Part shown: positions 3,805 through 19,849 of the stretch, piece by piece | How positions within the stretch are numbered: position 1 is the first letter of the stretch | How the letters are laid out: every line of letters starts with the position of its first letter | Assembly (NCBI RefSeq): GCF_900537115.1 | Contig: NZ_UNRG01000010.1 | Location: 1-64,000 of the forward strand | Source: Arthrobacter sp. Alg241-R88 | GTDB taxonomy: Bacteria; Actinomycetota; Actinomycetes; Actinomycetales; Micrococcaceae | Reading direction: 5' to 3' | Length of the DNA stretch: 64,000 nucleotides | The notes under the pieces: generated by a model | What the model was told of the DNA's origin: nothing | The model's input: the letters and a program-made list of their open reading frames with translations, nothing else | Databases searched by the model: none | Position numbers and translations under genes: made by a program

Positions 3805-3823
3805 GTGAGTAGCCACTACTCGT
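3805..3823 (+). promoter_or_regulatory. Palindromic motif GTA-N5-TACTCGT, copy A
   Basis: The core GTA-GCCAC-TACTCGT (3809-3823), preceded by TGA, forms an imperfect palindrome of the form ACGAGTA-N5-TACTCGT. It lies 87 bases before an ATG at 3910. Copies in the same orientation and at similar distance precede the genes at 8836, 10984, 14104 and (minus strand) 19735. It is probably an operator or a promoter element; its binding factor is unknown. Confidence 0.5.
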
Positions 3824-3909
3824 GTGCTTCCTCCCCCTGCCCCGTAACGTCCTGAAAAAGTGTCTGCGATGACACTCGCTTCAGTGGTTCGGCTGTCAGG
3901 GGCAGGCTT

Positions 3910-4155
3910 ATGGGGACTAAACCCGGAGTGCGGAAAGCGCACCATCAGACCGGGGCCAATGACGGAGGCGGCGGTACAGCGTGGTTCCGCAAAGAGTCAT
4001 TGGCCCCCATAACGTCCGGGCCTCCCGCTGATTTTCCAGCCGAGAATGAACAGATATTCCTGGGCTTCATAGCCCTTGCTGCTGGCGCAGCCCTGCCCGA
4101 TTCCGGGCCAGTCCTTGACTGCGAGGTAATTTCCCTGCCGGAAGGACAGCGATGA
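3910..4155 (+). CDS. Possible small protein upstream of the Hpt-like gene
   Basis: An 81-codon open frame whose TGA overlaps the ATG of the next gene (ATGA, 4152-4155). A GGGGCAGG stretch precedes its ATG, and a recurring palindromic motif lies 87 bases upstream. These support a real gene. Against it, codon third positions are less GC-rich than in neighbours and the protein, with a short hydrophobic stretch ('IFLGFIALAAGAAL'), matches no family I know. It may instead be the leader of the downstream gene. Confidence 0.35.
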   Translation: MGTKPGVRKAHHQTGANDGGGGTAWFRKESLAPITSGPPADFPAENEQIFLGFIALAAGAALPDSGPVLDCEVISLPEGQR

Positions 4156-4565
4156 CGCAGTACGGGGGCCATACCCTGCCACTCCTGGACAGTTCGGTTT
4201 TGGACAGGTTGCGTGCCGAGCTGGACGACGACGAAGGCGTCTGGAGTGTTTTTGTCCAGGATTTCGTGGCCCACCTGCCCGCCAGGACGGAAAATCTCCG
4301 CCTGGCCCTCACCACCGCCGATCTTGTCGGCGCAAGGAACGCAGTCCTCAGCCTCAAGACCTCCAGCCAGATGGTGGGTGCAGAAAACCTCGCGGGCCTT
4401 GCGCTTGATGTGGAGCATTCACTGCGTTCGGCCGCCCGCGATGACGACCCCGAGGTTGCCCTGCCCCGGCTCGCGGCAGCCTACCTCCTGCGCATCAGGC
4501 AATCCGCAGATCAGACTGCCTATCTCCTGGAGAGGCTTCTTCACCAACGACGAGCCGGCGCATGA
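4152..4565 (+). CDS. Hpt-like domain protein lacking the phospho-histidine (copy 1)
   Basis: A 137-residue, largely helical protein built like a histidine phosphotransfer domain ('LDRLRAELDDDEGVWSVF', then 'AVLSLKTSSQMVGAENL'). In true Hpt domains the latter segment reads AHxLKGSxxxxGA; here Leu66 occupies the histidine position and Thr70 replaces glycine, so phosphotransfer is not expected. A paralogue at 11872-12363 carries the same change. GGAAGGAC precedes the ATG. The setting, near GAF-ANTAR regulators, suggests a non-enzymatic partner in signalling, perhaps binding a receiver or kinase domain (inference). Confidence 0.75.
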   Translation: MTQYGGHTLPLLDSSVLDRLRAELDDDEGVWSVFVQDFVAHLPARTENLRLALTTADLVGARNAVLSLKTSSQMVGAENLAGLALDVEHSLRSAARDDDPEVALPRLAAAYLLRIRQSADQTAYLLERLLHQRRAGA

Positions 4566-4766
4566 GTCATCGGTTCAGCTCACTCCCAACGCTCGGTGGG
4601 TTTCGCCCAGCTCTCTTCCGGGGAACTGTCCACGCGCGTAATCTTGAGGAATCAGCGGCCTGCTTACTGGGAGCGGCTGGTGAGGGCTCGAGCAGGAGGG
4701 CCGGTTGTTCCACCGTCATGTGAACCACAGGTCGACGGTTCGGATGCCATCCTCATTGGAACTGCA

Positions 4767-5954
4767 GTGAAATCTTCAACAGATCAGCCCGGCATTCCAC
4801 CCGTCGGCGGGCCTCAACGAACTTTCGGCGTTGAGGAGGAATTCCTGCTCGTAGATCCGGATACGGGGCAACCGGTGCCGGTAGCGGAACAGGCCCTGCG
4901 GCACGCCATTAAGAATCCAAGGACCGGCCAGGGGCCAGTCCTTGCTCTGGAGGTTAAACAGGAGCAGCTTGAGGTTGTTGGCCCCGTTTGTTCCACCTAC
5001 CAGCAGATGGCGCAGGCCATCAGGCAGGGCCGGGCCATGGCCGATACAGCCGCCCGGGCAGTTGGCGCCCGGGCCGCGGCCTTGGCCACCAGTCCCTTGG
5101 CGGCCACCCCAACACTGGTACCTGAGCGGCGCTACCTGAACATGGCGGCCCGGTTCCACCTGACCTTCAGGGAACAACTGACCTGCGGCCTGCATGTTCA
5201 CGTCCACGTCACCTCAGGGGAGGAAGGCGTTGCTGTCCTGGACCGAATCCGCGTCTGGTTGCCCGTGCTGCTGGCGCTGAGTGCGAACTCCCCGTTCTGG
5301 CAGGGGACCAACAGCGGTTACGCGAGCTTCCGCTACCAGGCGTGGAGCCGGTGGCCGACGGCGGGACCTTGCGAACAGTTCGGATCCTTACAGGAATACC
5401 GCCGTCACGTGCAGGAATTGCTTGCGACCGGTGTGCTGCTGGACGAGGGCATGGTGTACTTTGACGCACGGCTGTCCCGCAACCACCCAACCGTTGAGGT
5501 GCGCATCGCCGACGTCTGCATGGAGGCCGAGCACACAGCGGTCCTCGCGGCTGTCGCGCGGGCACTGGTGGAGCGGGCGGCCCAGGAATGGCGGGCCGGA
5601 ATGCCAGCGCCACGCCTGCCGGCCGCGCACCTGCGCCTTGCTGGCTGGATGGCCAGTGAAGCCGGCGTCGAAGGCAGACTCCTTCACCCCCTGCGGCATT
5701 CTCCGTGCCCTGCGACGGAGGCCGTCCAGGACCTCCTGGCGCATATCCGGCCTGTCCTCGCCAGCTTCGGGGACGAGGAGCAGGTCACTTTGGGACTCGC
5801 CCACATCCTGGCCTCCGGTAACGGCGCCCACAAACAACGCGAAGCGATGGTTAAAAGCCAGAGCCTGACCGCTGTGGTGATGGACGCCGTCGAACGCACG
5901 CATGCAGCAGCCGCAAGCCCGCACCGCCGTTGGCGGCACCTCTACGCGACCTAA
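4767..5954 (+). CDS. Carboxylate-amine ligase, YbdK / glutamate-cysteine ligase 2 family
   Basis: ATP-dependent enzyme of the GCS2 family, which joins a carboxylate to an amine (glutamate-cysteine ligase is the reference reaction). 'RTFGVEEEFLLVDPDTG' near the N-terminus is the family's signature glutamate-rich strand, and 'CGLHVHV' and 'EVRIADVCMEAEHTA' are further conserved blocks. An in-frame GTG at 4596 would add 57 residues unlike the family; the GTG at 4767 gives 395 residues, close to the usual length, and is preferred. The native substrate is uncertain because YbdK-type proteins have only weak gamma-glutamylcysteine activity. It follows the Hpt-like gene on the same strand. Confidence 0.88.
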   Translation: MKSSTDQPGIPPVGGPQRTFGVEEEFLLVDPDTGQPVPVAEQALRHAIKNPRTGQGPVLALEVKQEQLEVVGPVCSTYQQMAQAIRQGRAMADTAARAVGARAAALATSPLAATPTLVPERRYLNMAARFHLTFREQLTCGLHVHVHVTSGEEGVAVLDRIRVWLPVLLALSANSPFWQGTNSGYASFRYQAWSRWPTAGPCEQFGSLQEYRRHVQELLATGVLLDEGMVYFDARLSRNHPTVEVRIADVCMEAEHTAVLAAVARALVERAAQEWRAGMPAPRLPAAHLRLAGWMASEAGVEGRLLHPLRHSPCPATEAVQDLLAHIRPVLASFGDEEQVTLGLAHILASGNGAHKQREAMVKSQSLTAVVMDAVERTHAAAASPHRRWRHLYAT

Positions 5955-6027
5955 CCGGATGAGTGGAACGCGAAGGCAATGTGTGCTGGGATGAAGTCAA
6001 GAAGCAGTTGGTCCGCCAAGGGCCAGA

Positions 6028-6771
6028 ATGCTGGAAATGGAGCCGGTCATGGACACTGAATTGCCGCTGGCCGACGAGCTGGCCGCGGTCTTTGCGCGGT
6101 TTTCCAACGTACTCCTGACCGAGGAGACCGTTTCCAGCGCCCTGAAGCTCATCACCGAGGCCGCAGTCCTGGCAGTGAATGACGCGGCCGGAGCAGGCGT
6201 GTCCCTGCTGGATACCAGCGGCAACCGCAGCAGCGCAGCTTCAACCAGCCCGATTGTGGCAGAGGCCGATGCGCTTCAGTACGAGCTTGGGCAGGGTCCC
6301 TGCATTAGCGCGTGGGCGTCGGGCGCCCCGGTGGACATCGCAGACGTGCGTACGGACTTGCGCTGGCCTGAATGGGGCACAGCAGCAGGCGATCTGGGCT
6401 TGCGCTCCTGCGTAAGTGTTCCCTTGCTTTCCGGGGACGTCGCCTTCGGTGCAATCAAGATTTACTGGGACAAACCCAAGGCGGCCTCGCACCGGCTGAT
6501 CCGGCTGCTGGAGTTGTTCGCAGCCCAGGCCTCGATTTTCCTGGTTAATGTGCAGGCGCGGGAGCGGGCCCAGATGTTGAGCGATGAGCTCAAGTCGAGC
6601 CTGACGCAACGCGATGCCATCAGCACCGCCAAGGGGATCGTTATGGCGAGCCTGGGCATGGGCAGCCATACCGCGATGCTGCACCTGATGACCAAGGCAC
6701 TGAACGAGGACCGGACCATGCTGGAAGTGGCAGAGGAAATCCTCGAGTCCACGCCGGGACTTGATTCATGA
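6028..6771 (+). CDS. GAF-ANTAR regulator (copy 1)
   Basis: A 247-residue cytoplasmic protein with an N-terminal GAF sensor domain (about 20-175; 'YELGQGPCISAW', 'VRTDLRWPEWG', 'SVPLLSGDVAFGAIKIY') and a C-terminal ANTAR domain (about 190-240; 'LTQRDAISTAKGIVMA', 'LEVAEEIL'). ANTAR domains bind paired RNA hairpins and prevent transcription termination. AAGGG precedes the chosen ATG; an ATG at 6049 with GGAG upstream is an alternative. It is followed 13 bases later by the small AYLHG-domain protein, so the two are probably co-transcribed and may work together. Confidence 0.92.
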   Translation: MLEMEPVMDTELPLADELAAVFARFSNVLLTEETVSSALKLITEAAVLAVNDAAGAGVSLLDTSGNRSSAASTSPIVAEADALQYELGQGPCISAWASGAPVDIADVRTDLRWPEWGTAAGDLGLRSCVSVPLLSGDVAFGAIKIYWDKPKAASHRLIRLLELFAAQASIFLVNVQARERAQMLSDELKSSLTQRDAISTAKGIVMASLGMGSHTAMLHLMTKALNEDRTMLEVAEEILESTPGLDS

Positions 6772-6784
6772 CCGGGGGTGAACG

Positions 6785-7087
6785 ATGGCCCTCCCTGGGG
6801 ACGAGGACGAACAGCGCCAAGGATTCCGGTTAGCTTTCGAGGCTGCACCATTTACCCTTGACCAGATCTGGATGAAGTACTTCGCGATCGGCGGAGGAGC
6901 CGGCATGACCGAAGTCCATGCCTACGTCCACGGGGCCCTGAGTCTTCCTCCCATTGAGCGCGATATGCTGGCGCACGCGCTGAACGAATCACTCAACGGC
7001 CATGGCGTCAATGGGCGCCGCGCCGGCTACAGCCAGGCCATCTGCCTCACGTCAGACGACCTCAAGCCAGACGAGGGCGAGAGCTGA
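6785..7087 (+). CDS. Small AYLHG-domain protein (copy 1)
   Basis: A 100-residue protein of no named family known to me. Its core 'IWMKYFAIGGGAGMTEVHAY', then 'VHGALSLPP' and 'LAHALNES', aligns with the protein at 8208-8423 and with the N-terminal part of the GAF protein at 9128-9946. The shared pattern is W-x2-Y-x-A-x-GG-x-A, E-x2-AY(V/L)HG, L-x-P and LAxA. It sits directly behind a GAF-ANTAR gene with GGGGGTG before its ATG. The recurring link with GAF proteins suggests a partner or sensor role (inference). Confidence 0.75.
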   Translation: MALPGDEDEQRQGFRLAFEAAPFTLDQIWMKYFAIGGGAGMTEVHAYVHGALSLPPIERDMLAHALNESLNGHGVNGRRAGYSQAICLTSDDLKPDEGES

Positions 7088-7163
7088 CGCCAGGGAAACG
7101 GCGTACGCTGGGGACACCAACTTCTGCAGGGCCTGACCCATCGCGGGTCGAAGGGTGGAACTG

Positions 7164-7331
7164 ATGAAAGCGTTAGTCGTGGCTATTGTCGCCGTCGCCA
7201 TAGTCCTCCTCATTGTGGGCTTGGCCGTCGAAACGCTGGGCTTCCTCCTGGGGGTAGCCCCGGTGCTGGTGGTCGTGGCTGTCGTCCTGCTGCTACTAAG
7301 CCGGTTCAGGGGACGCCGCATCCCCCGCTGA
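7164..7331 (+). CDS. Tiny membrane protein
   Basis: A 55-residue protein almost wholly hydrophobic (two runs, about 4-24 and 27-46) with a basic C-terminus (RFRGRRIPR). AAGGGTGG precedes the ATG. It shares its strand with the preceding AYLHG protein, 76 bases away, and converges on the next GAF-ANTAR gene. The function is unknown; the topology fits a one- or two-pass inner-membrane peptide. Confidence 0.65.
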   Translation: MKALVVAIVAVAIVLLIVGLAVETLGFLLGVAPVLVVVAVVLLLLSRFRGRRIPR

Positions 7332-7366
7332 CCGGCACTGCTGGACCAGAAGTTTCCGCGCGGGGT

Positions 7367-8140
7367 TCAGTTCGTGGTCGTTTGGGCGGGGTGGGGCTTT
7401 GAAGTTGCCCGGTCGAAGTGGGTTTGGGGTTTTTCGCCGGAAGCCTTGACCACTATTTCCTCGGCGAGATCGCGTAGTTTTTGGTTCCGGGTGCTGGAGG
7501 CCTTGGTCAGGATCTTCATGGCTTCGCTTTGGGTGCACCGGTTCTGGGCCATAACGATCCCGCAGGCCAGGTCGATGGCCGTCCGGCTTTTCATGGCCGT
7601 TTCCATGTCTTGGGCAACCCCTTGAATAGTTGCAACCTTTACGGCGAGCCGTACCGCATGGCCGGCGATTTCAGCGAACCCCGCAGCGTCCCGAACCGCG
7701 GCCTCGCTGAAGACGCCGGCTTGGGAGGCGAAAAAATTCAAGGCAGCAGATGCCTCCTGGTTCAGTTCCATTGGGACCCCCAGCGTGGTGAAGCATCCGT
7801 GCTCCATTAACTGCTTTTGATACTCCGGCCATCGGGAGTCACTTCGCGTATCTCCCAGCAGGACTGAAGTCTGAGTCCGGAGTGCAGTCATGCAGGGACC
7901 AGGGCCGGCATACTGCTCAATCCTGTCCAACTCGACGGCCCTGTCGCTGCTGCCGCCCACCGTCGCAGAAGCCCGGTGGCGTTTCAGGGTGACCCCGCAC
8001 TCAACGTCCGTGCCGGCGCTGCGGCTGATCGTTGCAGCGGCAACCCCGGCAAGACTGGTAAGGAAATCGGACACCGAATCCGTACCGATAATGAGGTCCT
8101 GGAGCTGGACGAGCAACTCTTGTTCAGGGGAAATGGCCAT
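7367..8140 (-). CDS. GAF-ANTAR regulator (copy 2)
   Basis: A 257-residue protein with a GAF domain (about 15-170; 'GVTLKRHRASATVGGSSDRA', 'YAGPGPCMTALRTQTSV', 'SRWPEYQKQLMEHGCFTTLG') and an ANTAR domain (about 178-232; 'METAMKSRTAIDLACGIVMA', 'LRDLAEEIV'). It is predicted to sense a ligand or redox cue and act as an RNA-binding antiterminator. The tail after the ANTAR domain is polar. A small AYLHG-domain gene lies 67 bases upstream on the same strand, repeating the pairing seen at 6028-7087 in the opposite gene order. Confidence 0.92.
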   Translation of the reverse strand: MAISPEQELLVQLQDLIIGTDSVSDFLTSLAGVAAATISRSAGTDVECGVTLKRHRASATVGGSSDRAVELDRIEQYAGPGPCMTALRTQTSVLLGDTRSDSRWPEYQKQLMEHGCFTTLGVPMELNQEASAALNFFASQAGVFSEAAVRDAAGFAEIAGHAVRLAVKVATIQGVAQDMETAMKSRTAIDLACGIVMAQNRCTQSEAMKILTKASSTRNQKLRDLAEEIVVKASGEKPQTHFDRATSKPHPAQTTTN

Positions 8141-8207
8141 ATCTCAACCTAGATCAATGCCAACATGGCGACAATAACCTGCACGGCGCAAACCTGGCGG
8201 CACCACC

Positions 8208-8423
8208 CTAAGGAAGGGAAACACGCGCTCTCCCGTAATCCTCCATGGCCCAGGCCAGGATCTTCAGGTCAAAGGGGTCCAGGACGAGGAGCCCATGAAG
8301 GTAGGCGTCAAACTCCTCCAGCCGCGCCTCACCCCCATTTGCCCTGTACCAGACCCATAAGAGGCAAAGTGACGAATGATCATTGCGAACCAGCAACTGC
8401 GCCTGCGGCCGTGGATCTTGCAT
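8208..8423 (-). CDS. Small AYLHG-domain protein (copy 2)
   Basis: A 71-residue protein read from the ATG at 8423, which has GCGAGGG seven bases upstream; an in-frame extension to 8525 lacks conserved features. 'LLWVWYRANGGEARLEEFDA', followed by 'YLHGLLVLDP' and 'LAWAMEDYG', matches the protein at 6785-7087 along its whole core. It lies just upstream of a GAF-ANTAR gene on the same strand. The function is unknown. Confidence 0.75.
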   Translation of the reverse strand: MQDPRPQAQLLVRNDHSSLCLLWVWYRANGGEARLEEFDAYLHGLLVLDPFDLKILAWAMEDYGRARVSLP

Positions 8424-8745
8424 TGGGGAACCCTCGCTACTGCCGCCGGCACCAACGCAAGGCAAGGCAGTAATTAAACGCCCCCTAACTGGAGGCGGGC
8501 GGAACCCGAGTACAACTCCGGACACCCTGTGGGGATGAACTTCTGACGTCCATCAAGGCCGCTGGCTGCATAACGGCCTGACAGAATACGGTGAACTCTC
8601 GAGCACCTGAGTTTCGCGAATCCGAGCCGTGGGCTCGACCGATTTTTCGCTCTCCTCCTGCCCAGCATGGGCGCCTTTGCGCCAAATAGCCAGCCCGGCT
8701 GTCTATCGGAGGACGAATCCGCAGAAAGCACGGGTTTGAGTACAG

Positions 8746-8760
8746 GTACTGACTACCCGT
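8746..8760 (+). promoter_or_regulatory. Palindromic motif GTA-N5-TACCCGT, copy B
   Basis: Core GTA-CTGAC-TACCCGT, with ACAG before it completing an imperfect palindrome. It lies 75 bases before the ATG at 8836, in the 412-base gap between divergent small genes. Apart from this motif the gap 8424-8835 shows no convincing gene. Confidence 0.5.
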
Positions 8761-8835
8761 TCCGCCCGAAACCACGTGGTCAGCAGGCGCGGAAACGAGT
8801 AACCAGTGCTGGCAGACTCGCGCCTAAACTTAGCC

Positions 8836-9078
8836 ATGGACGCAATCCCGGCGGTAATCCTCATCCTGGGTGTGGCTGTCGCCTGGCTGGGCCTGGCGGT
8901 ATTCCTGCTCCTCAGGTTGCGGCGCCGCAGGAGTGGATCGTCACTGGTCGCGTCGGCTCCACCTCCCGCCGATCCTGACACCAACCAGCGGCACAGGCCC
9001 TGGCGCCGCCTCCGCCCGGTAACTGGCCAAGCCCCGGCGCGGCGACGCAGGTTGAGTGTCAGGAAAGTCCGCGGGTAA
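8836..9078 (+). CDS. Small single-pass membrane protein
   Basis: An 80-residue protein with one N-terminal membrane segment ('IPAVILILGVAVAWLGLAVF', about 4-27) followed by an arginine-rich cytoplasmic tail. The start at 8836 puts the membrane segment immediately after the initiator and is preferred to one ten codons upstream. A GTA-N5-TAC motif lies 75 bases upstream. Its family and function are unknown. Confidence 0.65.
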   Translation: MDAIPAVILILGVAVAWLGLAVFLLLRLRRRRSGSSLVASAPPPADPDTNQRHRPWRRLRPVTGQAPARRRRLSVRKVRG

Positions 9079-9127
9079 AGCCAACACCTGCCACTAAGAC
9101 GGGGGACAGTAAGACGGCGGCCAGGCG

Positions 9128-9946
9128 CTAAGTCCGCGCGTCGATATGGCTCTGGGCGATTGCGGCGAGTGTCCGGAGTACCTGCTGGTCCGATGGCGGG
9201 AAGGCGCGGGGCTGCTGGTCGATGATACACAGGGTTCCGATATTCCAGCCGCGGGGCCCGTGCAAAGGATAGCCCGCATAGAAGCGGATGTGGGGCTCCC
9301 CCACCACGAGCGGATTGGACGCGAAACGGTCATCGGTGAGTGTGTCGTTGATGATCAGCATCGAGTTCTGTTCCACCGTTGCCGCGCAGAGTGCGATCTG
9401 CCTCGGAGTTTCCTCGCGAAGTGGCCCGAAGACAGATTTGAAGTACTGGGCGTCTTCGGCGATAAGTGACAAAGATGCAGCGCCCACATCAAAGTACTTC
9501 CTGGTGGCAGTCACAATGCGGTCAAACGCTTCTTCCGCGCCGCTGTGAAGCAGGTTCGTCTCGTGCAGGGATTTCAGGCGTTCACCCTCTGCTTGTTCTG
9601 GCGTGAGCAGAAACTTGCCCGCAGCTCCCAGCGCTGACAGTGACTGCTCACGGGGTGTCCCCTGGTCAGCCGCGTACTGCCTGGATCTTTCCATCAGGCC
9701 TGGTGAGGGAGCCAACTGCCGCCCCGGCGAGTGTCCGTTGCCGGCGCCAAGGCGGCGTTGCGGTTTGGGCCACGCCATGGACCCGTGAAGGTAGGCGTCC
9801 AGCTCGAACTCCGACCACCGGGATTTGCCCGAATTGGCGGGCAAGAGTTTCCGGGGATCCAAACCGATCGTCGCAGCGAGCTCCAGCCGCCGCTCCACCT
9901 CGTCATCCACGCCGTACATCTCCAACCGAGTCGCCAAACCAAGCAT
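9128..9946 (-). CDS. GAF-domain protein with N-terminal AYLHG segment
   Basis: A 272-residue protein. The N-terminal part contains 'RWSEFELDAYLHGSMAWPKP' (about 43-62), the core of the small proteins at 6785-7087 and 8208-8423. The C-terminal part is a GAF domain (about 118-265; 'ETNLLHSGAEEAFDRIV', 'LIINDTLTDDRFASNPLVVG', 'GYPLHGPRGWNIGTLCIID') of the type found before diguanylate cyclase and kinase domains, but no output domain follows. It therefore looks like a stand-alone sensor. The fusion is direct evidence that the AYLHG segment and GAF sensors act in one pathway. Confidence 0.85.
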   Translation of the reverse strand: MLGLATRLEMYGVDDEVERRLELAATIGLDPRKLLPANSGKSRWSEFELDAYLHGSMAWPKPQRRLGAGNGHSPGRQLAPSPGLMERSRQYAADQGTPREQSLSALGAAGKFLLTPEQAEGERLKSLHETNLLHSGAEEAFDRIVTATRKYFDVGAASLSLIAEDAQYFKSVFGPLREETPRQIALCAATVEQNSMLIINDTLTDDRFASNPLVVGEPHIRFYAGYPLHGPRGWNIGTLCIIDQQPRAFPPSDQQVLRTLAAIAQSHIDART

Positions 9947-10099
9947 TCCGCAGCTGCAAACCCCATTTGTAAGGTTACTTAGTACTTTACCCTTGTGGCT
10001 ACCCCTCCGGCCTAATCGGCAAGGGCGCCCCCGCTTCCGAAAAACTGACAGTTGAGCGAAGACCTCTTAGGCAGGGACTCCGGGATTAGGATTTCTTCC

Positions 10100-10855
10100 A
10101 TGAGGATTGCCGTTGCAGGGGGAACCGGTACCGTCGGGCGCCACGTGGTGGAGATAGCGAAAGAGCGCGGGCACGACGTCGTCAGCCTGAGCCGCTCGGA
10201 GGGCGTGGACCTGGTGAACGGCCGCGGCCTGGACCAGGCGCTCCAGGGCACGGAGACAGTCATCGACGTTTCCGGCATCCAGACCACGTCCACCAAGAAG
10301 GCAGTTGACTTCTTCACCAACGCCACCCAGAACCTGCTGGCGGCGGAGAAGAAGGCGGGCGTGCGGCATCACGTGGCACTCTCCATCGTTGGAATCGACA
10401 AGGCCACCTCGGGTCTCTACGCCGGGAAGCTGGTGCAGGAGGACGAAGTCAGGCATGGCGGCATTCCCTGGTCCCTCCTCCGGTCCACGCAGTTCCACGA
10501 GTTTGTCCCGATGGTGGTAAAGGCCGCCTCGGCCGGCCCGCTGGTGCTGGTACCGAAGATGTTCACCCAGCCGGTCGGCGCCCGGGAAGTGGCGGCTGCC
10601 CTGGTCGCCGCAGCAGAAGCAGGGCCGAAGGGACGCCTGCCCGATCTCGGTGGCCCCCGCGGCGAACAGCTGGTGGACCTGGTCCGCGCTTACCTGAAGA
10701 AGACGGGCAAGCGGAAACGGATTGTTCAGGTGCATGTTCCGGGCCCGATGGGTCAAGCGATGCGCAAAGGCAAGCTGATTCCCAAGGCGGGTGCCGCCGT
10801 CGGACGCCAGACGTTTCTTGAGTGGCTGGAAACGCAGACGCAACAAAACAGGTAG
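10100..10855 (+). CDS. NAD(P)-binding Rossmann protein, atypical SDR / NmrA-like
   Basis: A 251-residue cytoplasmic protein opening with 'MRIAVAGGTGTVGRHVV', the GGxGxxG dinucleotide-binding loop of atypical short-chain reductases. 'RHHVALSIVGID', 'YAGKLVQEDEVRHGGIPWSL' and 'LRSTQFHEF' are the conserved blocks of this group, which often lacks a canonical Tyr-Lys catalytic pair. An in-frame ATG at 10052 would add 16 residues ahead of the Rossmann strand, so 10100 is preferred. It may be an oxidoreductase or a redox-sensing regulator; no substrate can be assigned. Confidence 0.88.
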   Translation: MRIAVAGGTGTVGRHVVEIAKERGHDVVSLSRSEGVDLVNGRGLDQALQGTETVIDVSGIQTTSTKKAVDFFTNATQNLLAAEKKAGVRHHVALSIVGIDKATSGLYAGKLVQEDEVRHGGIPWSLLRSTQFHEFVPMVVKAASAGPLVLVPKMFTQPVGAREVAAALVAAAEAGPKGRLPDLGGPRGEQLVDLVRAYLKKTGKRKRIVQVHVPGPMGQAMRKGKLIPKAGAAVGRQTFLEWLETQTQQNR

Positions 10856-10883
10856 TCCCCGGCCGGCGCCGGCGAAAATTAGA

Positions 10884-10898
10884 GTACCCGCTACTGGT
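10884..10898 (+). promoter_or_regulatory. Palindromic motif GTA-N5-TACTGGT, copy C
   Basis: Core GTA-CCCGC-TACTGGT, 85 bases before the GTG start of the GAF-ANTAR gene at 10984, in the same orientation as the other copies. Confidence 0.5.
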
Positions 10899-10983
10899 GC
10901 CCTCCCTTCGGGCCCGCCCGTAGATTCAAGGTGCAGACCGCGAACAATGCTGCGCGGGCGCGGAGCGAACGGGGGGGGTCACG

Positions 10984-11796
10984 GTGACGATTCATGTGGC
11001 AGGCACCAGCGGCAGGGTGTTGAAGGCCGACGGCGGGAAGCAGGCGATGGCGGGCTCCCCCGCCGTGGAGCCCTGGCCGGAGCCGTCCGGGTTCCTACTT
11101 GACCTGGTGACGGACACCCACACGGATGTGGACTCCCTGCGGAGGCTGGCCGAAACTGCTGCTGTTGCGCTCACCGGGTCGGTGGGGGCCCAAATTGATT
11201 GCGCCGCCACACTCGCCTCTGCACAGCGCGCTCCCATTCGCGCGGCCAACAACGGCCGGGCGGCTTCCCTCGCCGCAGCGGAACAGGATTTCGACGACGG
11301 CCCGCTGGCCCAGGTGGTCGATTCAGGGATTCCCGTGGTGGTGGAGGCCGACGGCGGCACTTTCCCGCGGTGGCAGGCTTACCGGTGCCGGTTCCTCGAC
11401 GCCGGCTATGGCGAAGTCCTCGCCGTTCCGGTCCGGCTCGAGGCCGGCATATCCTGCGTCCTGGCCTTCTTCGCCCCGCCAGGCGTTTGGTTCACACCGG
11501 AGGTGGTGGGGCATGCCACCTGGTTCGCCGGCGTGGCGGGGAAGAGCCTGAAGCTGGCCCTTGACGTGCGGAGCGTGCGGGCAGCCGGGGACAACCTGAA
11601 GGCCGTCCTGGAAAGCCGCACCTCCATCGACGTGGCGTGCGGCGTGATCATGGGCAGGAACCGCTGTTCCTACCCGGACGCCTTCAGCATGCTTGCCTCT
11701 GCGTCCACCCGTCGAAGCATGCAGGTACGGGACGTGGCCGAGGGCATCCTCAAGAACATGCCGCGCGGCGCACCCGCCACCCGGTTCGTGGACTGA
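10984..11796 (+). CDS. GAF-ANTAR regulator (copy 3)
   Basis: A 270-residue protein starting at GTG behind a run of G residues. It has a GAF-like domain (about 35-200; 'LLDLVTDTHTDVDSLRRLAE', 'YGEVLAVPVRLEAGISCVLA') and an ANTAR domain (about 208-260; 'LKAVLESRTSIDVACGVIMG', 'RDVAEGILKNM'). It is a predicted RNA-binding antiterminator. It converges on the second Hpt-like gene, 75 bases away, and is preceded by copy C of the palindromic motif. Confidence 0.9.
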   Translation: MTIHVAGTSGRVLKADGGKQAMAGSPAVEPWPEPSGFLLDLVTDTHTDVDSLRRLAETAAVALTGSVGAQIDCAATLASAQRAPIRAANNGRAASLAAAEQDFDDGPLAQVVDSGIPVVVEADGGTFPRWQAYRCRFLDAGYGEVLAVPVRLEAGISCVLAFFAPPGVWFTPEVVGHATWFAGVAGKSLKLALDVRSVRAAGDNLKAVLESRTSIDVACGVIMGRNRCSYPDAFSMLASASTRRSMQVRDVAEGILKNMPRGAPATRFVD

Positions 11797-13030: not shown

Positions 13031-13059
13031 CATCTGCAGGACCTTGGCAAGGACAAGGG

Positions 13060-13969: not shown

Positions 13970-14006
13970 GCGCCGACTCTACGCAATCCCCCATGCCGGC
14001 GCCCGC

Positions 14007-14021
14007 GTATCGCCTACTCGT
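14007..14021 (+). promoter_or_regulatory. Palindromic motif GTA-N5-TACTCGT, copy D
   Basis: Core GTA-TCGCC-TACTCGT, 82 bases before the ATG at 14104 and 37 bases before the divergent start at 13969. Confidence 0.5.
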
Positions 14022-14103
14022 TTTACTAACCCCGGACCACGTGGCGGCGTCAACACGGCGTCAATATATTGACTTTCGATAGAAACCAATTGATTCTTGA
14101 GCT

Positions 14104-14601
14104 ATGAGTATTGTGAGTCGATTGGTCCTCCCGCTTCGGGTCCTGCTGGTGATGGTGTTCCTTGGGCTGTTGGTGGCCCAGGTCATGTCGTTCCCCGGTG
14201 AATTCCTCTTCACGACAGAGGAGGGGCCGGGAATGGATCCCTGGCGGTGGCCGCTGCTGTTGTTCGCCGAATTGGAGGCGCTGTGCCTGCAGGTTGTCAT
14301 CGTGTGCATCTGGCGGTTGCTGACCTTAGTTCAGCGGGACCGGATCTTCACCCCGGCCTCCCTGCGGTGGGTGGACGTGATCATGTGGACGTTCGTCGCG
14401 GCATGGCTGCTGCTGGCGGCATTGGCCGGCTCCCTTATCGCGTACATCTACTTCACGCCCGAACTGCGCGACCCCGGGACGCCTGCCATGTTGATCGGCA
14501 TCACGCTGATCTTTGCGGTGCTGGTTCTGCTGATTGTGGTGATGCGGGACCTGCTGCGGCAGGCGACAGCACTGCGGACCGACATGGAAGGGGTGATCTG
14601 A
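14104..14601 (+). CDS. DUF2975-type membrane protein
   Basis: A 165-residue protein with four predicted membrane segments (about 7-27, 49-70, 96-119, 130-152). The pairing with a small Xre-type regulator whose ATG overlaps its stop (TGATG) is the standard context of DUF2975 proteins. Members are poorly characterised; the arrangement suggests a membrane partner that modulates the regulator (inference). A GTA-N5-TAC motif lies 82 bases upstream. Confidence 0.8.
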   Translation: MSIVSRLVLPLRVLLVMVFLGLLVAQVMSFPGEFLFTTEEGPGMDPWRWPLLLFAELEALCLQVVIVCIWRLLTLVQRDRIFTPASLRWVDVIMWTFVAAWLLLAALAGSLIAYIYFTPELRDPGTPAMLIGITLIFAVLVLLIVVMRDLLRQATALRTDMEGVI

Positions 14602-14837
14602 TGGCCATCGTGGTGCGCATCGACGTCGAACTGGCCAAGCGCAAGATGAGCGTGGGCGAGTTCGCCGAGCGCGTCGGGATCACCCCGGCCAACGTGGCGG
14701 TGCTGAAGAACGGCCGGGCCAAGGCGATCCGCTTCAGCACCCTGGACGCCATGTGCCGGGTCCTGGATTGCCAGGCGGGCGACCTGCTCGAGTGGGTAGC
14801 CGACGATGGTGCCGGCGACGGGAAAGAGAAGCGGTGA
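14601..14837 (+). CDS. Small Xre-family (YozG-like) transcriptional regulator
   Basis: A 78-residue helix-turn-helix protein: 'ELAKRKMSVGEFAERVGITP', then 'ANVAVLKNGRAKAIRF' and 'LDAMCRVLDCQAGDLLEW', which is the compact Xre fold found in YozG-like regulators. It overlaps the DUF2975 gene at its start and the next small membrane protein at its end, so the three form one translationally coupled operon and probably regulate themselves. Confidence 0.88.
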   Translation: MAIVVRIDVELAKRKMSVGEFAERVGITPANVAVLKNGRAKAIRFSTLDAMCRVLDCQAGDLLEWVADDGAGDGKEKR

Positions 14838-15052
14838 GGCGGCTGGCCTCACTCCTCGCCGTGGTGCTGGGCGTCACCGTCTTCGTGCTCGGCGGCGCTG
14901 ATGACTCTCCGGGGCTGCAGGGTATCGGGGCGGTGATCGTAGCAGGCGCGGCCGTCCTCCTCGTCCGGGCCGTGCGCCGGGATCGCCACCGCTCTAAGCC
15001 GCAACAGGGGGCCATAGGCGCGGCTGTCCTCAATAACCTGTCAAAGCCGTAG
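14834..15052 (+). CDS. Small membrane protein in the DUF2975 operon
   Basis: A 72-residue protein starting at a GTG that overlaps the stop of the Xre gene (GTGA). It has two hydrophobic stretches ('LASLLAVVLGVTVFVL' and 'IGAVIVAGAAVLLV') around a short acidic loop, then a basic tail. A strong hairpin follows the stop. Unknown function. Confidence 0.65.
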   Translation: MRRLASLLAVVLGVTVFVLGGADDSPGLQGIGAVIVAGAAVLLVRAVRRDRHRSKPQQGAIGAAVLNNLSKP

Positions 15053-15055
15053 CCA

Positions 15056-15089
15056 GCTGGAAGCCTGCGGGTATCCGCAGACTTCCAGC
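15056..15089 (+). terminator. Terminator hairpin of the DUF2975 operon
   Basis: Outer arms GCTGGAAG and CTTCCAGC enclose an inner CTGCGG/CCGCAG stem with a four-base loop. A pyrimidine-rich stretch (TTTGCCTTTCC) follows. Confidence 0.65.
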
Positions 15090-15189
15090 ATTTGCCTTTC
15101 CTCCCTTGTCCACGTTCGTAGGATTTAGCCATGCGCCGGTTCTGGAACGTACAGGTGGTTGGTGGCTCCCCTTCGGTGAAGGAGTGGTA

Positions 15190-15447
15190 ATGGTTCTCAG
15201 GGAAACTGAAATCCGGGCGCTCAGGGCTGTGGTGGACCGGCTGGCCCGGCGCTTCCCTGATCAGCCCCGCTCCGTCATCGAGGACGTGGTTGCCTACGAA
15301 CACAGCCTTTTTGCTGAATGCCGGGTCCGGGACTACATCGCCATCCTGGTTGAACGAGCCGCAAAGCTCAGGCTTGCTGCGCCGCCAGTCCTGAGCCCGC
15401 AGGTGGATGCAGCCAGCGCTCCCGGCGGGTCTCCTGTCAACGCTTGA
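15190..15447 (+). CDS. Three-helix-bundle dimerisation-type small protein
   Basis: An 85-residue protein with the pattern 'VVDRLARRFPDQPRSVIEDV', then 'FAECRVRDYIAILVERAAK', found in many short actinobacterial proteins described as three-helix-bundle dimerisation domains. GAAGGAG precedes the ATG. The partner and role are not known. Confidence 0.7.
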   Translation: MVLRETEIRALRAVVDRLARRFPDQPRSVIEDVVAYEHSLFAECRVRDYIAILVERAAKLRLAAPPVLSPQVDAASAPGGSPVNA

Positions 15448-15499
15448 CGAAGGGTTTACGTACGCCCGGGCACACGCGGCCGCCGCCGTACGTTACCAA

Positions 15500-16447
15500 T
15501 CAGCCCCCGCCGTCGAACCGCGCACTGCTGCTGCCCTGCGGCACCACAACGTGCACAACGTTGCGCTCGATGGTGAAATCGGTGGGCGTGGCAGTGACGA
15601 TCTCGCCGTCGAGGTTCACCGGCATGGGCGGCTCGGTAACCAGCCGGACACGCCGGCTGGTTAGGTGATAAACCCCGTCGCGTTCCACAAAGCTGCCGTC
15701 CTTCAGCAGCCGTGCGATCCTCACGTGCTCCCGCAGCGGCGCCCCGGGGATGGCATAGATATCAAGGGTGTGGTCATCAATCCCCGCCGTCGGCGAGACC
15801 GTGTTACCGCCGCCGTAGTGCCGGCCGTTGCCCACTGCCACCTGCAGCATGTCCTCGAGCTCCAGCGCTTCATGGTCCCCCTCGGGGAACTCGAGGCGGG
15901 CCCGGAACGGCCTGTGCCGGGCATAGGCGCGCACGGCGGCAACGCCGTAGGCCACCGGCCCGAGATACCGCTTCAGGCGGGGGCTGAGCGTCTCGGTGAC
16001 ACCGACCGAGAGGCCAACCGAAGCAACGTTCAGGAAGGGCTGGCCGTTCGCCCGCCCCAGGTCGATGTCCACCACCTTTCCGTCCGCGAGGGCAGCACAG
16101 GCACCGGCAAGATCGTTCGGTATCTCGAGCGTGCGGGCAAGATCGTTGGCGGTTCCCAGTGGAAGGACGCCGAGCACGATTCCGGTCCCTGCGAGCCGGC
16201 CGGCGGCGTAGGACACCGTCCCGTCACCGCCGCCGACAACCACCAGGTCGTGCCCGTCGGCCACCACCCTGTCCAGGGTTCCGGCCAGCTCTGCGCCGGA
16301 CAGCACGCGGTGCACGGATGTGACGGTCAGGCCCGCCCTTCGCAGTTTGTCCACTGCCGCCTCCGGCGCCGCCGCTGCCAGGCGTGCCCCTGCGTTTATC
16401 ACCACGGCAACGGAGTACGCCTCTCGGGCAAGCTTCATGGGGAACAT
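15500..16447 (-). CDS. Diacylglycerol kinase-family lipid kinase (YegS/DagK type)
   Basis: ATP-dependent lipid kinase; family members phosphorylate diacylglycerol or related lipids at the membrane. The 315 residues carry 'LVVVGGGDGTVSYAAG', the GGDGT nucleotide loop, and 'GVLPLGTANDLART', the second signature. A C-terminal beta-sandwich with 'VNLDGEIVTATPTDF' completes the fold. The length fits the family. It is divergent from the TfoX-N gene, with a GC-rich palindrome between them. Confidence 0.92.
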   Translation of the reverse strand: MFPMKLAREAYSVAVVINAGARLAAAAPEAAVDKLRRAGLTVTSVHRVLSGAELAGTLDRVVADGHDLVVVGGGDGTVSYAAGRLAGTGIVLGVLPLGTANDLARTLEIPNDLAGACAALADGKVVDIDLGRANGQPFLNVASVGLSVGVTETLSPRLKRYLGPVAYGVAAVRAYARHRPFRARLEFPEGDHEALELEDMLQVAVGNGRHYGGGNTVSPTAGIDDHTLDIYAIPGAPLREHVRIARLLKDGSFVERDGVYHLTSRRVRLVTEPPMPVNLDGEIVTATPTDFTIERNVVHVVVPQGSSSARFDGGG

Positions 16448-16514
16448 CCTAGGCTGGGTGGGCGGGAAATCCCTGAGCCGCCAGGCTGAAGGTTCGCACC
16501 GGGCAACGTAGGGC

Positions 16515-16545
16515 GTACGACGGCGGCGCGCGGGCGCCGTCGTAC
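16515..16545. repeat. GC-rich palindrome, TACGACGGCG family, copy 1
   Basis: Arms GTACGACGGCG (16515-16525) and its complement (16535-16545) with a nine-base GC-rich loop. Related palindromes occur at 23725-23754 and 32942-32971. This copy lies between divergent genes, so it is not simply a terminator. Confidence 0.6.
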
Positions 16546-16727
16546 CCCCTACTTCCCGACGTGGCTGGGACAGGAGTGAGACCGCAAGCCTGGTGCCGCA
16601 GGATCCCGCGGCCGTAGGATCTAGAAATGCTCACGCGAGTGTCACCGCTACCGAGGGAGTTATCCGTGATCGGCTACGCGCTTACTCTGCAATACGGCGG
16701 GCAGGACAACAGAGCGGGCGGCGGGCA

Positions 16728-17072
16728 ATGACAGCGGCCGCCCCGAGCCTGCGGGACGCCCTCGCGCAGAGGCTTCGAGACCTGCTGAGCTCATTCCAGA
16801 ACGTGCGTGAAGTGCGCATGTTCGGCGGCCTGTCCTTCATGGTGGATGACCGCATGGCTGTAGCGGCCGGCCGTAACGGGGACCTGCTGGTACGCACCGA
16901 TCCCGCCCTGTACGGCGACCTGCTCAAGCGAGGCGGAGAACCGGCTTACATGGGCAAGGCTCGTCCGATGGGCCCCGGATGGCTCACCGTGCCGTACGAA
17001 CGGATCCAGGACAGTGCGGAACTTGAATACTGGCTCAAGGTGGGCGTCGATTCCCGTAACGCGTCGAACTGA
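16728..17072 (+). CDS. TfoX/Sxy N-terminal domain protein
   Basis: A 114-residue protein consisting of a TfoX N-terminal domain: 'VREVRMFGGLSFMVDDRMAV' then 'LLVRTDP' and 'ARPMGPGWLTV'. The C-terminal TfoX domain is absent, as is usual for stand-alone actinobacterial members, whose function is not established. An in-frame extension upstream is not conserved, so the ATG at 16728 is chosen. Confidence 0.85.
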   Translation: MTAAAPSLRDALAQRLRDLLSSFQNVREVRMFGGLSFMVDDRMAVAAGRNGDLLVRTDPALYGDLLKRGGEPAYMGKARPMGPGWLTVPYERIQDSAELEYWLKVGVDSRNASN

Positions 17073-17098
17073 AGGTTCAGCCACGGCAGGACTTAGTA

Positions 17099-17632
17099 CT
17101 AGCGCGCGTAGCGGGACTTCATCATCGAGACACCGTCCCCGGCCAACTCGTCGCAGTACGTTTCGCGGCCGGCCATCGCCATGGTCAGTGCCAGGGTTGT
17201 CCCTGTGACTAACGGGCCGGAGCCGACTTGGAAGGGACCGTCGGTCGCTTCCAGGCGAAGACCCTTCACCGCGGAACGGCTGTTCACCGCGAAATCACGG
17301 GCGGCGTAGAACTGCGCCACCGCGGTGACGGCATCGGCTGCCGGGGTTCGTTGCAGCCCGAGCGGTCGACGTATGTCCTGGCTGTGCACAATAACTTCAC
17401 CCAGCCAAGCCGCTGTGTGCTTGGACGGCGCCTTGGTGCTCCTGATCACGGCCCGGAACCGGCTGAGCGTTTCGCTGGGGCTCGCGCCGCGCTGTTCTTC
17501 CAGGCGCCGCTGGTTGTGGAGATCGGCGTCGAACCGGGCCGCGAGAATGCTTCCCATCCAGCGGAGCGAGCCGATGCTCGCGGCCGCGGTCAGGTGGGCG
17601 ACGACTTCCTCCACCACCCACCGCCCGCACAA
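17099..17632 (-). pseudogene. N-terminally truncated mycothiol-dependent DinB/MDMPI-like protein
   Basis: The 177-residue frame begins at 'CGRWVVEEVVAHL', which is the middle of the first conserved block of the maleylpyruvate isomerase-like family (usually preceded by 40-50 residues ending in a CxGW motif). The metal-ligand histidine in 'VVAHL' and the E-x3-H pair in 'GEVIVHSQDIRRPLG' are kept. Only three bases separate the GTG at 17632 from the stop of the upstream MBL-fold gene, so no room remains for the missing helix. It is probably a deletion-truncated gene, although the rest of the domain is intact and could still be translated. Confidence 0.6.
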
Positions 17633-17635
17633 TGC

Positions 17636-18451
17636 TTAGTGCTCCCGGCGGGTCTCCTGCAGCCGCTTGATGAACCAGCGCGACTGCTCCGGCCCGTAGG
17701 GCAGGACGGGAATCGCCTTGGTCGCATCGGAGGGGGCCTCGCGGATGGAACGCTGGGCCTGGCGTACCGCCGTCGTCATGGTGTCCGCCATGGTCTTCAC
17801 GAACTGGTCGCTGCACGGCTTGCCGTGGCCGGGGATGAGGAATTCGTAGCGGTGGCGCAGCGCTGAGATGTGCCGGAGCGCGTCCGCCCATTCCTCCGGG
17901 TAGGAGTCCTCGAAGGACGGGTGGGCGCCCTGCTCCACGAGGTCGCCGACATAGAGGGTAGTGGGCGTGCCCACCAGCAGGTCGCCGTCGGTATGGCCCC
18001 GGCCCAGGTAGAAGAGGGTGGCGGTCAACCCGCCCAGGTCCACCAGCACCGGCTGGTCCTTCACGATGGCATTGGGCACCACGAGCTCCACGTCCTGGCC
18101 CTCGCCAGCTGACATCTCCGGTTCCAGGGTCCCCACGAAGCGGCGCTGGAGGTCCCCGCGTTCATCGATCTCCCGGGCGCAGTTCTGGTGCGCCCAGAAT
18201 TCGGTGACGCCCTCTGCCGCGAACACGGCGTTTCCGAAAAAGTGGTCGTAATGGGCGTGGGTGTTGACGACGACGAGCGGCAGCTGCGTCTTCTCCCGCA
18301 CCGCATCCAGGATCTCGCGCCCCTGGCGGGGGCCGCAGCCCGTATCGATCACCATGGCTCGCTCGGATCCGACTATGAGTCCGGTGTTCAGCAGCGAGCC
18401 TTCGGTGACCAGCACATAGTTGTCCGCGCCGACTTCGAGCCATTCCGACAT
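17636..18451 (-). CDS. MBL-fold metallo-hydrolase
   Basis: A 271-residue metallo-beta-lactamase-fold enzyme with the zinc motif 'THAHYDHFFG' and later ligands in 'LGRGHTDGDLLV', 'LYVGDLVEQG' and 'LIPGHGKPC'. It is predicted to be a cytoplasmic hydrolase; the substrate is unknown. The C-terminal 60 residues are helical. It runs straight into a truncated DinB-like gene on the same strand, and a decayed relative lies at 39885-40217. Confidence 0.9.
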   Translation of the reverse strand: MSEWLEVGADNYVLVTEGSLLNTGLIVGSERAMVIDTGCGPRQGREILDAVREKTQLPLVVVNTHAHYDHFFGNAVFAAEGVTEFWAHQNCAREIDERGDLQRRFVGTLEPEMSAGEGQDVELVVPNAIVKDQPVLVDLGGLTATLFYLGRGHTDGDLLVGTPTTLYVGDLVEQGAHPSFEDSYPEEWADALRHISALRHRYEFLIPGHGKPCSDQFVKTMADTMTTAVRQAQRSIREAPSDATKAIPVLPYGPEQSRWFIKRLQETRREH

Positions 18452-18565
18452 TGTTTCTCCGTACCTCCGGCAAAGCAGTGTTCGTTCGTCCAGGCGTCGA
18501 TTGTACCCACTGGCCCTTGGAGTTCCCGGGATGACCGCTGTTGCTGGTGCAGGAGTGTCCCAGTG

Positions 18566-19735
18566 CTAGTTCCTCGCCCAAATCGCTACCCAGTCAACGT
18601 AAACATGGCCGCTGGTCTGGGGTGCCGGGCAGCCTGTCAGGCACGACTCGGTCTGCAGGATGTAGCGCATCGGCTTGTTCGGGACCATTGACGTTGCAAC
18701 GCCGATGGACTTGCCATCAAGGAAGAATTCGATGCGCCCCGGACTCCACTCGGTGGTTGCCACATGCCAGTCCGTAAAGGGAACGTTGGGACGAAACACA
18801 TCGAATTGGTGGCTGCCGTCCCGGATGCCATGCAGGGCGGCGTAGATGACTGTGGAGAGGTCCCCTTCCGGGAAATCGATCTCGCCGTCCTGCGGCCACT
18901 GCTTGCTAACGGGCCAGAGCAGCCAGGCTACCTTGTAACCCGGGAGGGCGTCGGCTTTGAAGCGCACGGAGTAGCGCCCGTAAAGCTGGCTGTTGTAGGG
19001 CGGCACGGTGGCTCCTGCGAATCTCGGGGAGGGTGCCGCACCCATGGAGACACCGTTTTCCGAGTGCAGGAACATGTCCAGGACACCGTTGTGGACACTC
19101 AGGACCTTTGACGGGTAGTAGCCAGAGTTTCTCTGGCCCTTTTCCTGCGCCTGGGCATGGGTGTCCGGCGTGCCGTCCTTGTAGGTCTCGTGCCATCTCG
19201 AACCGTAGATGCCGGGAAAACCGCCAAGGGGCACGTCCCCGTCGGTGAAGTCCTCCACAAAGACCTGCTTCCAGCCCGGCAGGTCGCCCACCGGCAGGGA
19301 TTGGTCGAAGGACAAAGACATGGGTTTCGGAGCCGGATCAGAGCCGCCGTCCTTGGTCGGCTCCGGGGAGGCAGTTTCGGCAGTGGCTCCCGGAGGCCCG
19401 GCCTCGGCACTCGGCTGCAGAGAACTTGGATCAGAAGTCGGCTCCGGAGAAGGGGCATCCGTAGTGGGCTGCGCAGAGCGGGTTACCTGGGTCACTGGCT
19501 CTCCTCCTCCGCCTCCTCCTCGGCCCTCAGCAGCTTGGGTCCGCGGGGAAGTTGCAGCCACGCTGAGCGTGCTAATGGCGACCGCCAGGGAAACGACCAT
19601 CAGGAGGGCGCCGCCGGTCCGCGCACCCTTCTTGACCGCTTCGGTGGGTGACGTTTCCTCCTCAGGGACAAGATGCCGCGTCGTGCCGTGTCCGCCCAGC
19701 CAAGGAAAGAGGGAGTTGCGAGGGCTGTTTGCCAT
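18566..19735 (-). CDS. Secreted or anchored glycoside hydrolase family 16 protein
   Basis: A 389-residue protein with a membrane segment (about 40-62), a long Pro/Ser/Thr/Glu-rich linker (about 85-145) and a GH16 beta-glucanase fold. The catalytic box 'DGEIDFPEGD' (about 283-292) has the E-x-D-x2-E arrangement of the family. GGGAGG precedes the ATG at 19735; the longer frame to 19795 lacks this site. Family members cleave beta-1,3 or beta-1,3-1,4 glucans or galactans. Placed near acyltransferase and SGNH genes, it may trim or remodel extracellular polysaccharide (inference). A GTA-N5-TAC motif lies about 100 bases upstream. Confidence 0.88.
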   Translation of the reverse strand: MANSPRNSLFPWLGGHGTTRHLVPEEETSPTEAVKKGARTGGALLMVVSLAVAISTLSVAATSPRTQAAEGRGGGGGGEPVTQVTRSAQPTTDAPSPEPTSDPSSLQPSAEAGPPGATAETASPEPTKDGGSDPAPKPMSLSFDQSLPVGDLPGWKQVFVEDFTDGDVPLGGFPGIYGSRWHETYKDGTPDTHAQAQEKGQRNSGYYPSKVLSVHNGVLDMFLHSENGVSMGAAPSPRFAGATVPPYNSQLYGRYSVRFKADALPGYKVAWLLWPVSKQWPQDGEIDFPEGDLSTVIYAALHGIRDGSHQFDVFRPNVPFTDWHVATTEWSPGRIEFFLDGKSIGVATSMVPNKPMRYILQTESCLTGCPAPQTSGHVYVDWVAIWARN

Positions 19736-19834
19736 GGTGTCCTCCCGTCGTGGTGCGTGGGGGACTTTGGGCAACAACGGAGCGCCCGGCCTCATCCCCG
19801 TCTATTCAGCCTAGGAGGGTCGCCGCAGCAGGTC

Positions 19835-19849
19835 ACGAGTACCGAGTAC
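19835..19849 (-). promoter_or_regulatory. Palindromic motif GTA-N5-TACTCGT, copy E
   Basis: On the minus strand it reads GTA-CTCGG-TACTCGT, preceded by GA, 99 bases before the GH16 start. Orientation towards the gene matches copies A-D. Confidence 0.5.

Follow-up and report, generated by a model that had tools for sequence, protein, structure and literature searches.

The 64,000-nucleotide stretch of Arthrobacter sp. Alg241-R88 DNA considered here (positions 1 to 64,000 of contig NZ_UNRG01000010.1; the window) carries several copies of a palindromic element that, in full, reads ACGAGTA-N5-TACTCGTG, is followed 21-22 bases downstream by a -10 hexamer and is often preceded by AAGTAG half-sites. 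It is nearly certain that this is a genuine, conserved operator-promoter element of a regulon of the Micrococcaceae; its sequence, its spacing, its conservation and its linkage to LAL genes are directly observed. The palindrome would most likely be read by the LAL regulator (MalT-like, STAND-TPR-LuxR) that is encoded between pth and sufS, and a probability of about 0.75 is assigned to the interpretation that the element is the class II activator operator of a Micrococcaceae LAL regulon. The evidence for a LAL protein as the reader of the element is strong, though indirect.

The element had initially been annotated from the window in the form of a loose pattern, GTA-N5-TACYSGT, at six places. 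The letters are present at all of them, with seven strand matches against an expectation of 0.12 (100 dinucleotide shuffles, largest value 2). In the whole 4.37-Mb genome, the loose pattern has 27 matches and its reversed control 43; since it is no commoner than the control, many of its matches could be due to chance, and it cannot define the regulon. As a genome-wide mark it had to be given up, only the fuller element being enriched. The latter was suspected from the sequence logo of 23 own-genome matches (leaving out L006, L008, L009 and L011, judged intragenic; L018 and L115 were also left out of later counts), which revealed conservation at positions that the search had not specified, namely the GA that precedes GTA (18 and 17 of 23), a G following CGT (15 of 23), and a T at offset 41 (16 of 23), which suggested that the element was longer and included a -10 region. 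The core is a 19-base palindrome with the half-site TACTCG. In a search of 18 site-rich genomes of the genus that admitted spacers of 2-9 bases, the spacer was exactly 5 in 104 of 105 matches; the reversed control gave 27 matches over all spacers. Counted from the G of GTA, the hexamer T[AT]NNNT stands 36 or 37 bases further on, which is 21 or 22 bases after TACTCGT, in 72 of 90 non-redundant sites; at the other neighbouring offset pairs it occurs in 1.8 of these sites on average and in 5 at most. GTA is preceded, at 6-8 bases, by an A tract (79, 70, and 61 A in the 90 sites), and the -35 region is otherwise poor, with A at its fourth place in 12 sites. If the -10 hexamer is taken as -12 to -7, the centre of the palindrome would be located near -43, and its last bases would form the first places of the -35 region. 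The palindromic core drawn in the initial annotation stands, but it was incomplete with regard to the G after CGT, the -10 hexamer and the frequent upstream half-sites. After the loose pattern had failed, a profile of 56 positions (R1), built from 55 sites, was used; for later scans, a weight matrix was derived from 22 own-genome matches. The profile returns 16 own-genome sites at E<0.01, whose E-values are partly circular because 15 of the 55 profile sites are from this genome.

Upstream of the palindrome, GTA recurs in the sense of the left half at distances of 22-24, 31-33, and 42-44 bases. In total, 68 such helically phased boxes are present in 59 of 82 upstream-diverged sites, compared with 17.5±3.8 by circular shift (maximum 31 in 2000); when each group of downstream genes is represented by a single site, the count is 40 boxes in 48 sites, compared with 10.0±2.8. 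As the offsets were found on the same 82 sites, separate checks on other sites matter. A phased box was present in 14 of 15 sites in LAL clusters that had been picked by protein, in 12 of 15 further LAL-linked sites and, elsewhere in the family, in 5 of 10 sites.

The linkage to LAL genes is seen at several levels. In the own genome, the order is pth, LAL1, LAL2, site, sufS, sufU, and LAL2 lies directly upstream of the sufS site in all 14 loci examined. Exact sites from other genera were located at LAL genes in 9 of 20 cases (edges of tblastn matches within ~600 bases), some of them between two LAL genes; profile sites are situated between LAL genes in G012 and G058 and directly before a LAL gene in G024. 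The reverse test started from LAL clusters picked by protein, excluding those first obtained through a known site; of 25 such clusters from 23 genomes, 14 contained a site with a score of at least 18 plus a -10 hexamer (15 and 11 of 25 at thresholds of 16 and 20, resp.). No sites were found in 20 shuffles of the same 302 kb, nor in 73 kb of real control DNA. Counted by genus, the exact motif is present in 9 of 16 genera with a LAL match in the tested genome and in 3 of 16 without (one-sided Fisher P 0.033, by a hand tally in which genus g22 is mixed). The median number of profile sites is 7 in the 14 genomes possessing a LAL2 orthologue of at least 56% identity and 1 in the other 16 (P 2e-4, uncorrected for descent). 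That both sufS and the LAL cluster belong to the regulon suggests where the binder is encoded. Before the nine LuxR-type helix-turn-helix (HTH) genes of the own genome, no strong profile site is found; the exceptions near LuxR-type genes are the sites of sufS and of a glycosyltransferase gene on contig C4, which both lie behind such genes. At nine loci of the same genus (L253, L255, L256, L259, and L271-L275), at least four tandem LAL-type genes adjoin pth, and sufS where it is covered, compared with two in the genome of the window; judged from sequence, these tandems would represent an expanded array of STAND regulators.

LAL2 is a protein of 865 amino acids with the LAL layout of an N-terminal P-loop ATPase and a C-terminal LuxR HTH in about 900 amino acids (Pfam GerE 4.4e-12; AAA_16 2.4e-7, just below its cut-off). 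Among 19 homologues with identities down to 34%, the HTH is invariant at 31 of 56 positions and the remainder at 91 of 804; the stretch of the recognition helix is 80-100% identical to LAL2 even where the middle of the homologue is down to 30%. The AlphaFold model of LAL2 (mean pLDDT 87.1, pTM 0.75) gave the STAND-TPR protein 6mfv as best Foldseek match (E 3e-10), with MalT (8bob) at rank 4 (E 6e-6). In a second structural comparison, TPR proteins were on top and MalT, aligned over 202 residues, came only at rank 41 with a Z of 11.7, on a level with other AAA ATPases.

Two other regulators were tried as binders and rejected on the basis of their presence or absence in 47 genomes. SARP-REC has no match at E<=1e-10 in G001, G003, G012, G016, G024, G026, G033, and G056, which have 2-9 profile sites. 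The orphan REC-LuxR protein encoded at L136 has no match in G056, a genome with 8 profile sites, and among the same-genus matches listed for it most are only ~25-40% identical.

An evident gene is found behind 14 of the 16 own-genome profile sites. Pfam-backed products are two Hpt proteins, a GAF-ANTAR protein, one family 2 glycosyltransferase, GH16, an aminotransferase class V whose gene is here called sufS, and SARP-REC. By eye, the translations would further include a second glycosyltransferase, a flippase-like, a LysM-like and a small membrane protein (the last with no Pfam match) as well as three secreted proteins; of these, one is encoded next to a sortase-like gene and another is the product of window positions 61003-61593, ~490 bases from its site. 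When the downstream genes of the own genome and its relatives are grouped by BLAST, the groups are sufS (14), the small membrane protein (9), GAF-ANTAR (9), Hpt (7), glycosyltransferase (5), SARP-REC (4) and smaller ones. Conservation before orthologues was evaluated at 11 named Hpt loci of Arthrobacter/Pseudarthrobacter, chosen by protein only, with a site called at a score of 20 or more plus a -10 hexamer. Nine of them carry the site within 300 bases upstream; at one of the other two it is 947 bases away, and at the last none is found at this score. The proposal of an operator or promoter element of an undescribed regulon that connects the ANTAR island with surface genes is supported by this conservation, and the fixed -10 hexamer speaks indirectly for a placement before genes rather than inside them. 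ANTAR, Hpt and surface genes remain in the proposed regulon, which also holds sufS and the LAL cluster, whereas the genes behind two of the window copies drop out. At L001, L025, L060, and L084, the motif precedes a gene for a SARP (Trans_reg_C-BTAD) fused to a receiver domain, and these promoters have no -10 hexamer at 36/37. Two more crowds of sites occur in the own genome, at C1:322-406 kb (five profile sites within 84 kb) and C4:189-230 kb; the two stretches together comprise L001-L005, L013, and L014 and contain glycosyltransferase and surface-protein genes.

Across 61 genomes of the genus, taken as Arthrobacter/Pseudarthrobacter on account of named Hpt relatives, GAGTA-N5-TACTCGTG has 180 exact sites versus 35 for the reversed controls and is present in 49 genomes. 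Within the family, exact matches came from 31 of 197 genomes, representing 12 of 32 genera, and in a class-wide draw from 14 of 394 genomes, three of them in this same genus. All 11 exact matches outside the family were examined; two have weak LAL-like matches within 4 kb, and none of the nine that reach the score has a phased box or a -10 hexamer at 36/37, so that they are taken as chance occurrences. In two genomes of one genus of another family (L241 and L242, each at 4037), the same exact palindrome GAGTAGCGACTACTCGTG is present with no -10 hexamer and no LAL gene and may belong to something else. Six of the 61 genomes of the genus have no profile site at E<=1e-3; since five of them (G010, G014, G018, G031, and G047), examined at their LAL genes, possess a weaker site in the LAL cluster, the zero is partly an effect of the threshold.

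In the window itself, two features accompany the copies at 3809(+), 10884(+), 19835-19849(-), and 62079-62093(-): the -10-like hexamer, at the usual 36 or 37 bases counted from the G in GTA, and an upstream half-site in phase. For 8746(+), 14007(+), and the plus-strand reading at 62083, neither is found, and 8746 and 14007 are not among the sites of the whole-genome profile search. Of the six copies first described, four are supported as true elements, and with the loss of the other two, support is also lost for the small membrane gene behind 8746 and the DUF2975-Xre operon behind 14007 as members. As only the minus-strand reading at 62079 has the accompanying signals, this copy points left, and the view that all copies are directed towards a start codon 75-99 bases away does not apply to it, the nearest likely start, 61593, being ~490 bases off. 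The window is a hot spot, holding 4 of the 16 profile sites of the genome (E<0.01) in 1.5% of its length (binomial P 7e-5). Its segment 4152-12363 groups GAF-ANTAR genes (6028, 7367, and 10984), a GAF gene (9128), and Hpt genes (4152 and 11872); a supported site is found only before Hpt 4152 and GAF-ANTAR 10984.

Table 1. Positions of the element, its parts and the adjoining genes in the window
Feature	Position	Strand	Remarks
Site 1, core palindrome GTGAGTA-GCCAC-TACTCGT	3805..3823	+	window match, profile, element features
Site 1, upstream half-site GTA of AAAGTACC	3787..3789	+	22 bases before core GTA; second GTA 42 before
Site 1, -10-like TAACGT	3845..3850	+	
81-aa open reading frame (3910-4155, no Pfam match) overlapping Hpt-domain gene (4152-4565)	3910..4565	+	behind site 1
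Site 2, core palindrome TAGAGTA-CCCGC-TACTGGT	10880..10898	+	window match, profile, element features
Site 2, upstream half-site GTA of CAGGTAGT	10852..10854	+	32 bases before core GTA
Site 2, -10-like TAGATT	10921..10926	+	
GAF-ANTAR gene	10984..11796	+	behind site 2; Pfam ANTAR 1.3e-12; GAF_2 below its cut-off
Site 3, core palindrome ATGAGTA-CTCGG-TACTCGT	19835..19853	-	window match, profile, element features
Site 3, upstream half-site GTA of CAAGTACC	19878..19880	-	31 bases before core GTA
Site 3, -10-like TAGGCT	19808..19813	-	
GH16 gene	18566..19735	-	start taken at 19735 behind GGGAGGACACC; reading frame opens at 19795
Site 4, core palindrome ACGGGTA-TCGCC-TACTCGT	62079..62097	-	points left; window match, profile, element features
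Site 4, upstream half-site GTA	62114..62116	-	23 bases before core GTA
Site 4, -10-like TTTACT	62052..62057	-	
196-aa open reading frame, secretion-signal-like start (by eye; no Pfam match)	61003..61593	-	nearest likely gene behind site 4, ~490 bases
Motif-like copy	8746..8760	+	not supported as member
Motif-like copy	14007..14021	+	not supported as member

In the mechanism proposed, a LAL-type LuxR regulator (STAND ATPase, TPR, LuxR HTH), most probably the product of the tandem LAL genes that separate pth from sufS, would bind as a dimer or in a larger assembly to ACGAGTA-N5-TACTCGT near -43. From its position over the poor -35 region it would recruit RNA polymerase to the -10 hexamer 21-22 bases further on, while additional protomers would be held by the phased AAGTAG half-sites upstream, as in multi-site MalT promoters. 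The sites inside the pth-sufS cluster imply that the LAL genes and sufS-sufU are under feedback control. Within Arthrobacter/Pseudarthrobacter, this regulon would have come to include Hpt, GAF-ANTAR, SARP-REC, and glycosyltransferase genes as well as GH16 and further surface genes. We infer binding, activation rather than repression, oligomerization and a signal. Several observations weigh against this reading. At threshold 18, 11 of the 25 LAL clusters picked by protein have no site, and in G033 and G049 the best match to LAL2 reaches no more than 40-45% identity, yet these genomes carry 9 and 8 sites, respectively. The -10 hexamer is missing at 36/37 from 18 of the 90 sites, among them every one of the four SARP-REC promoters and the three window copies that are in doubt, and a phased box is present at only 4 of 10 named Hpt sites. 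The recognition helix of LAL1 is nearly the same as that of LAL2, so that either protein may bind, and such a helix may be widespread in LuxR proteins at large; the candidates surveyed were LuxR-type, SARP-REC and REC-LuxR proteins.

Were the element a true activator operator, yet recognized by a dimeric regulator other than a LAL protein, the LAL genes would simply count among that regulator's targets. The linkage as such indicates only that LAL genes carry sites, and regulators often target regulators, as is the case here with SARP-REC. Such a situation is nevertheless considered unlikely in view of the clustering of the sites at LAL genes in other genera, of a palindrome geometry and phased half-sites that match a MalT-like protein, and of SARP-REC and REC-LuxR being absent from site-rich genomes or represented there by distant homologues only. 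A repressor operator is quite improbable. The palindrome does overlap the -35 region, and the Streptomyces LAL protein SCO6993 is reported to repress (PMC9628970), but a repressor would have no need of a -10 hexamer fixed at 21-22 bases, and the -35 region is poor, as seen from its fourth place.

The fixed distance from a conserved -35-like block to the -10 hexamer would also be expected if TACTCGTG served as the -35 region of promoters recognized by an alternative sigma factor. That the left half is kept at positions which the search left free, that the spacer between the halves is rigid, and that half-sites of the same sense recur in phase upstream render this explanation very improbable. 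A chance resemblance of short palindromes would fit the lack of enrichment of the loose pattern in the genome and the two of six window copies that look accidental; for the full element it is refuted by the shuffle and reversed controls, the spacer, the -10 hexamer and the conservation before orthologues, and scarcely deserves further consideration.

In the lux box of LuxR, the half-sites are six apart and located near -42. Like this 20-bp inverted repeat (PMC9628970), the Arthrobacter element would be bound by a dimeric LuxR-type HTH at a position overlapping the -35 region, corresponding to class II; unlike it, the element has a spacer of 5 and another sequence and is linked to no known acyl-homoserine-lactone system. 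LuxR proteins may also bind direct repeats, as described for MilO (PMC11784345). A close parallel is MalT of Actinoplanes sp. SE50/110, whose operator TCATCC-5nt-GGATGA lies over the -35 region before 17 transcription starts, with its 3' end 34.4±1.0 bases from the start; the regulator gene is inside its own regulon, which is one 51-gene region, and the motif is common to relatives (PMC7567727). Shared with this system are a palindrome made of two hexamers that are 5 nt apart, here over the predicted -35 region, a motif that recurs in relatives, and a LuxR/MalT-like candidate regulator, whose genes adjoin the sites here and whose regulatory role in Arthrobacter is a predicted one; an operator distance of ~34 from the start would agree with the predicted -10 offset in the 72 sites mentioned above. 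The two differ in the half-site (GGATGA there, TACTCG here), for which reason the element is not filed as a MalT-box regulon, in the dispersal of the genes, in the phased upstream half-sites, and in the lack of a known maltose link in Arthrobacter. MalT of E. coli is a STAND ATPase with a LuxR-type DNA-binding domain that oligomerizes and acts on multi-site promoters, with four sites in malPp800 (PMC10427625). This domain combination resembles that of the candidate, and several sites per promoter fit the phased boxes, whereas the palindrome differs in sequence from the MalT box GGA(T/G)GA (PMC9628970, PMC7567727). SCO6993 of Streptomyces coelicolor, a LAL protein of 606 amino acids, binds to palindromes and to its own promoter, without a consensus being given by its authors (PMC9628970); it is similar in being a LAL regulator of this binding type, as predicted here, and different in being a repressor. 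Neither the motif nor a LAL regulon in Arthrobacter was found described in the open-licence literature, as judged mostly from the best-ranked 8-20 of up to 2,469 papers.

Summarizing, the sequence and the gene content of the element are new, while its mechanistic kind is already known. It is favoured, with less confidence than the operator assignment itself, that a tandem, self-controlled LAL/STAND array at the pth-sufS locus of the Micrococcaceae would run a dispersed regulon via a palindrome plus phased direct half-sites, and that in Arthrobacter/Pseudarthrobacter this regulon would be wired to a second layer of regulators (GAF-ANTAR antiterminators, Hpt phosphotransfer proteins, and SARP-REC) as well as to the cell surface, with one STAND sensor commanding RNA-level, phosphorelay, and envelope responses together. 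LAL operators seem to be poorly defined outside MalT, the Streptomyces protein being a case that was studied and for which its authors could offer no consensus (PMC9628970). For the present element, the consensus is sharp and comes with its promoter geometry, the regulon can be seen in dozens of genomes, and a candidate regulator adjoining it can be named. This opens the way to how Arthrobacter/Pseudarthrobacter switch genes for the cell surface, ANTAR and Hpt signalling, and cysteine desulfurase, and it allows the question to be put of what the STAND sensor in these bacteria detects. By naming a candidate activator, an unstudied control system of common soil bacteria is made testable.

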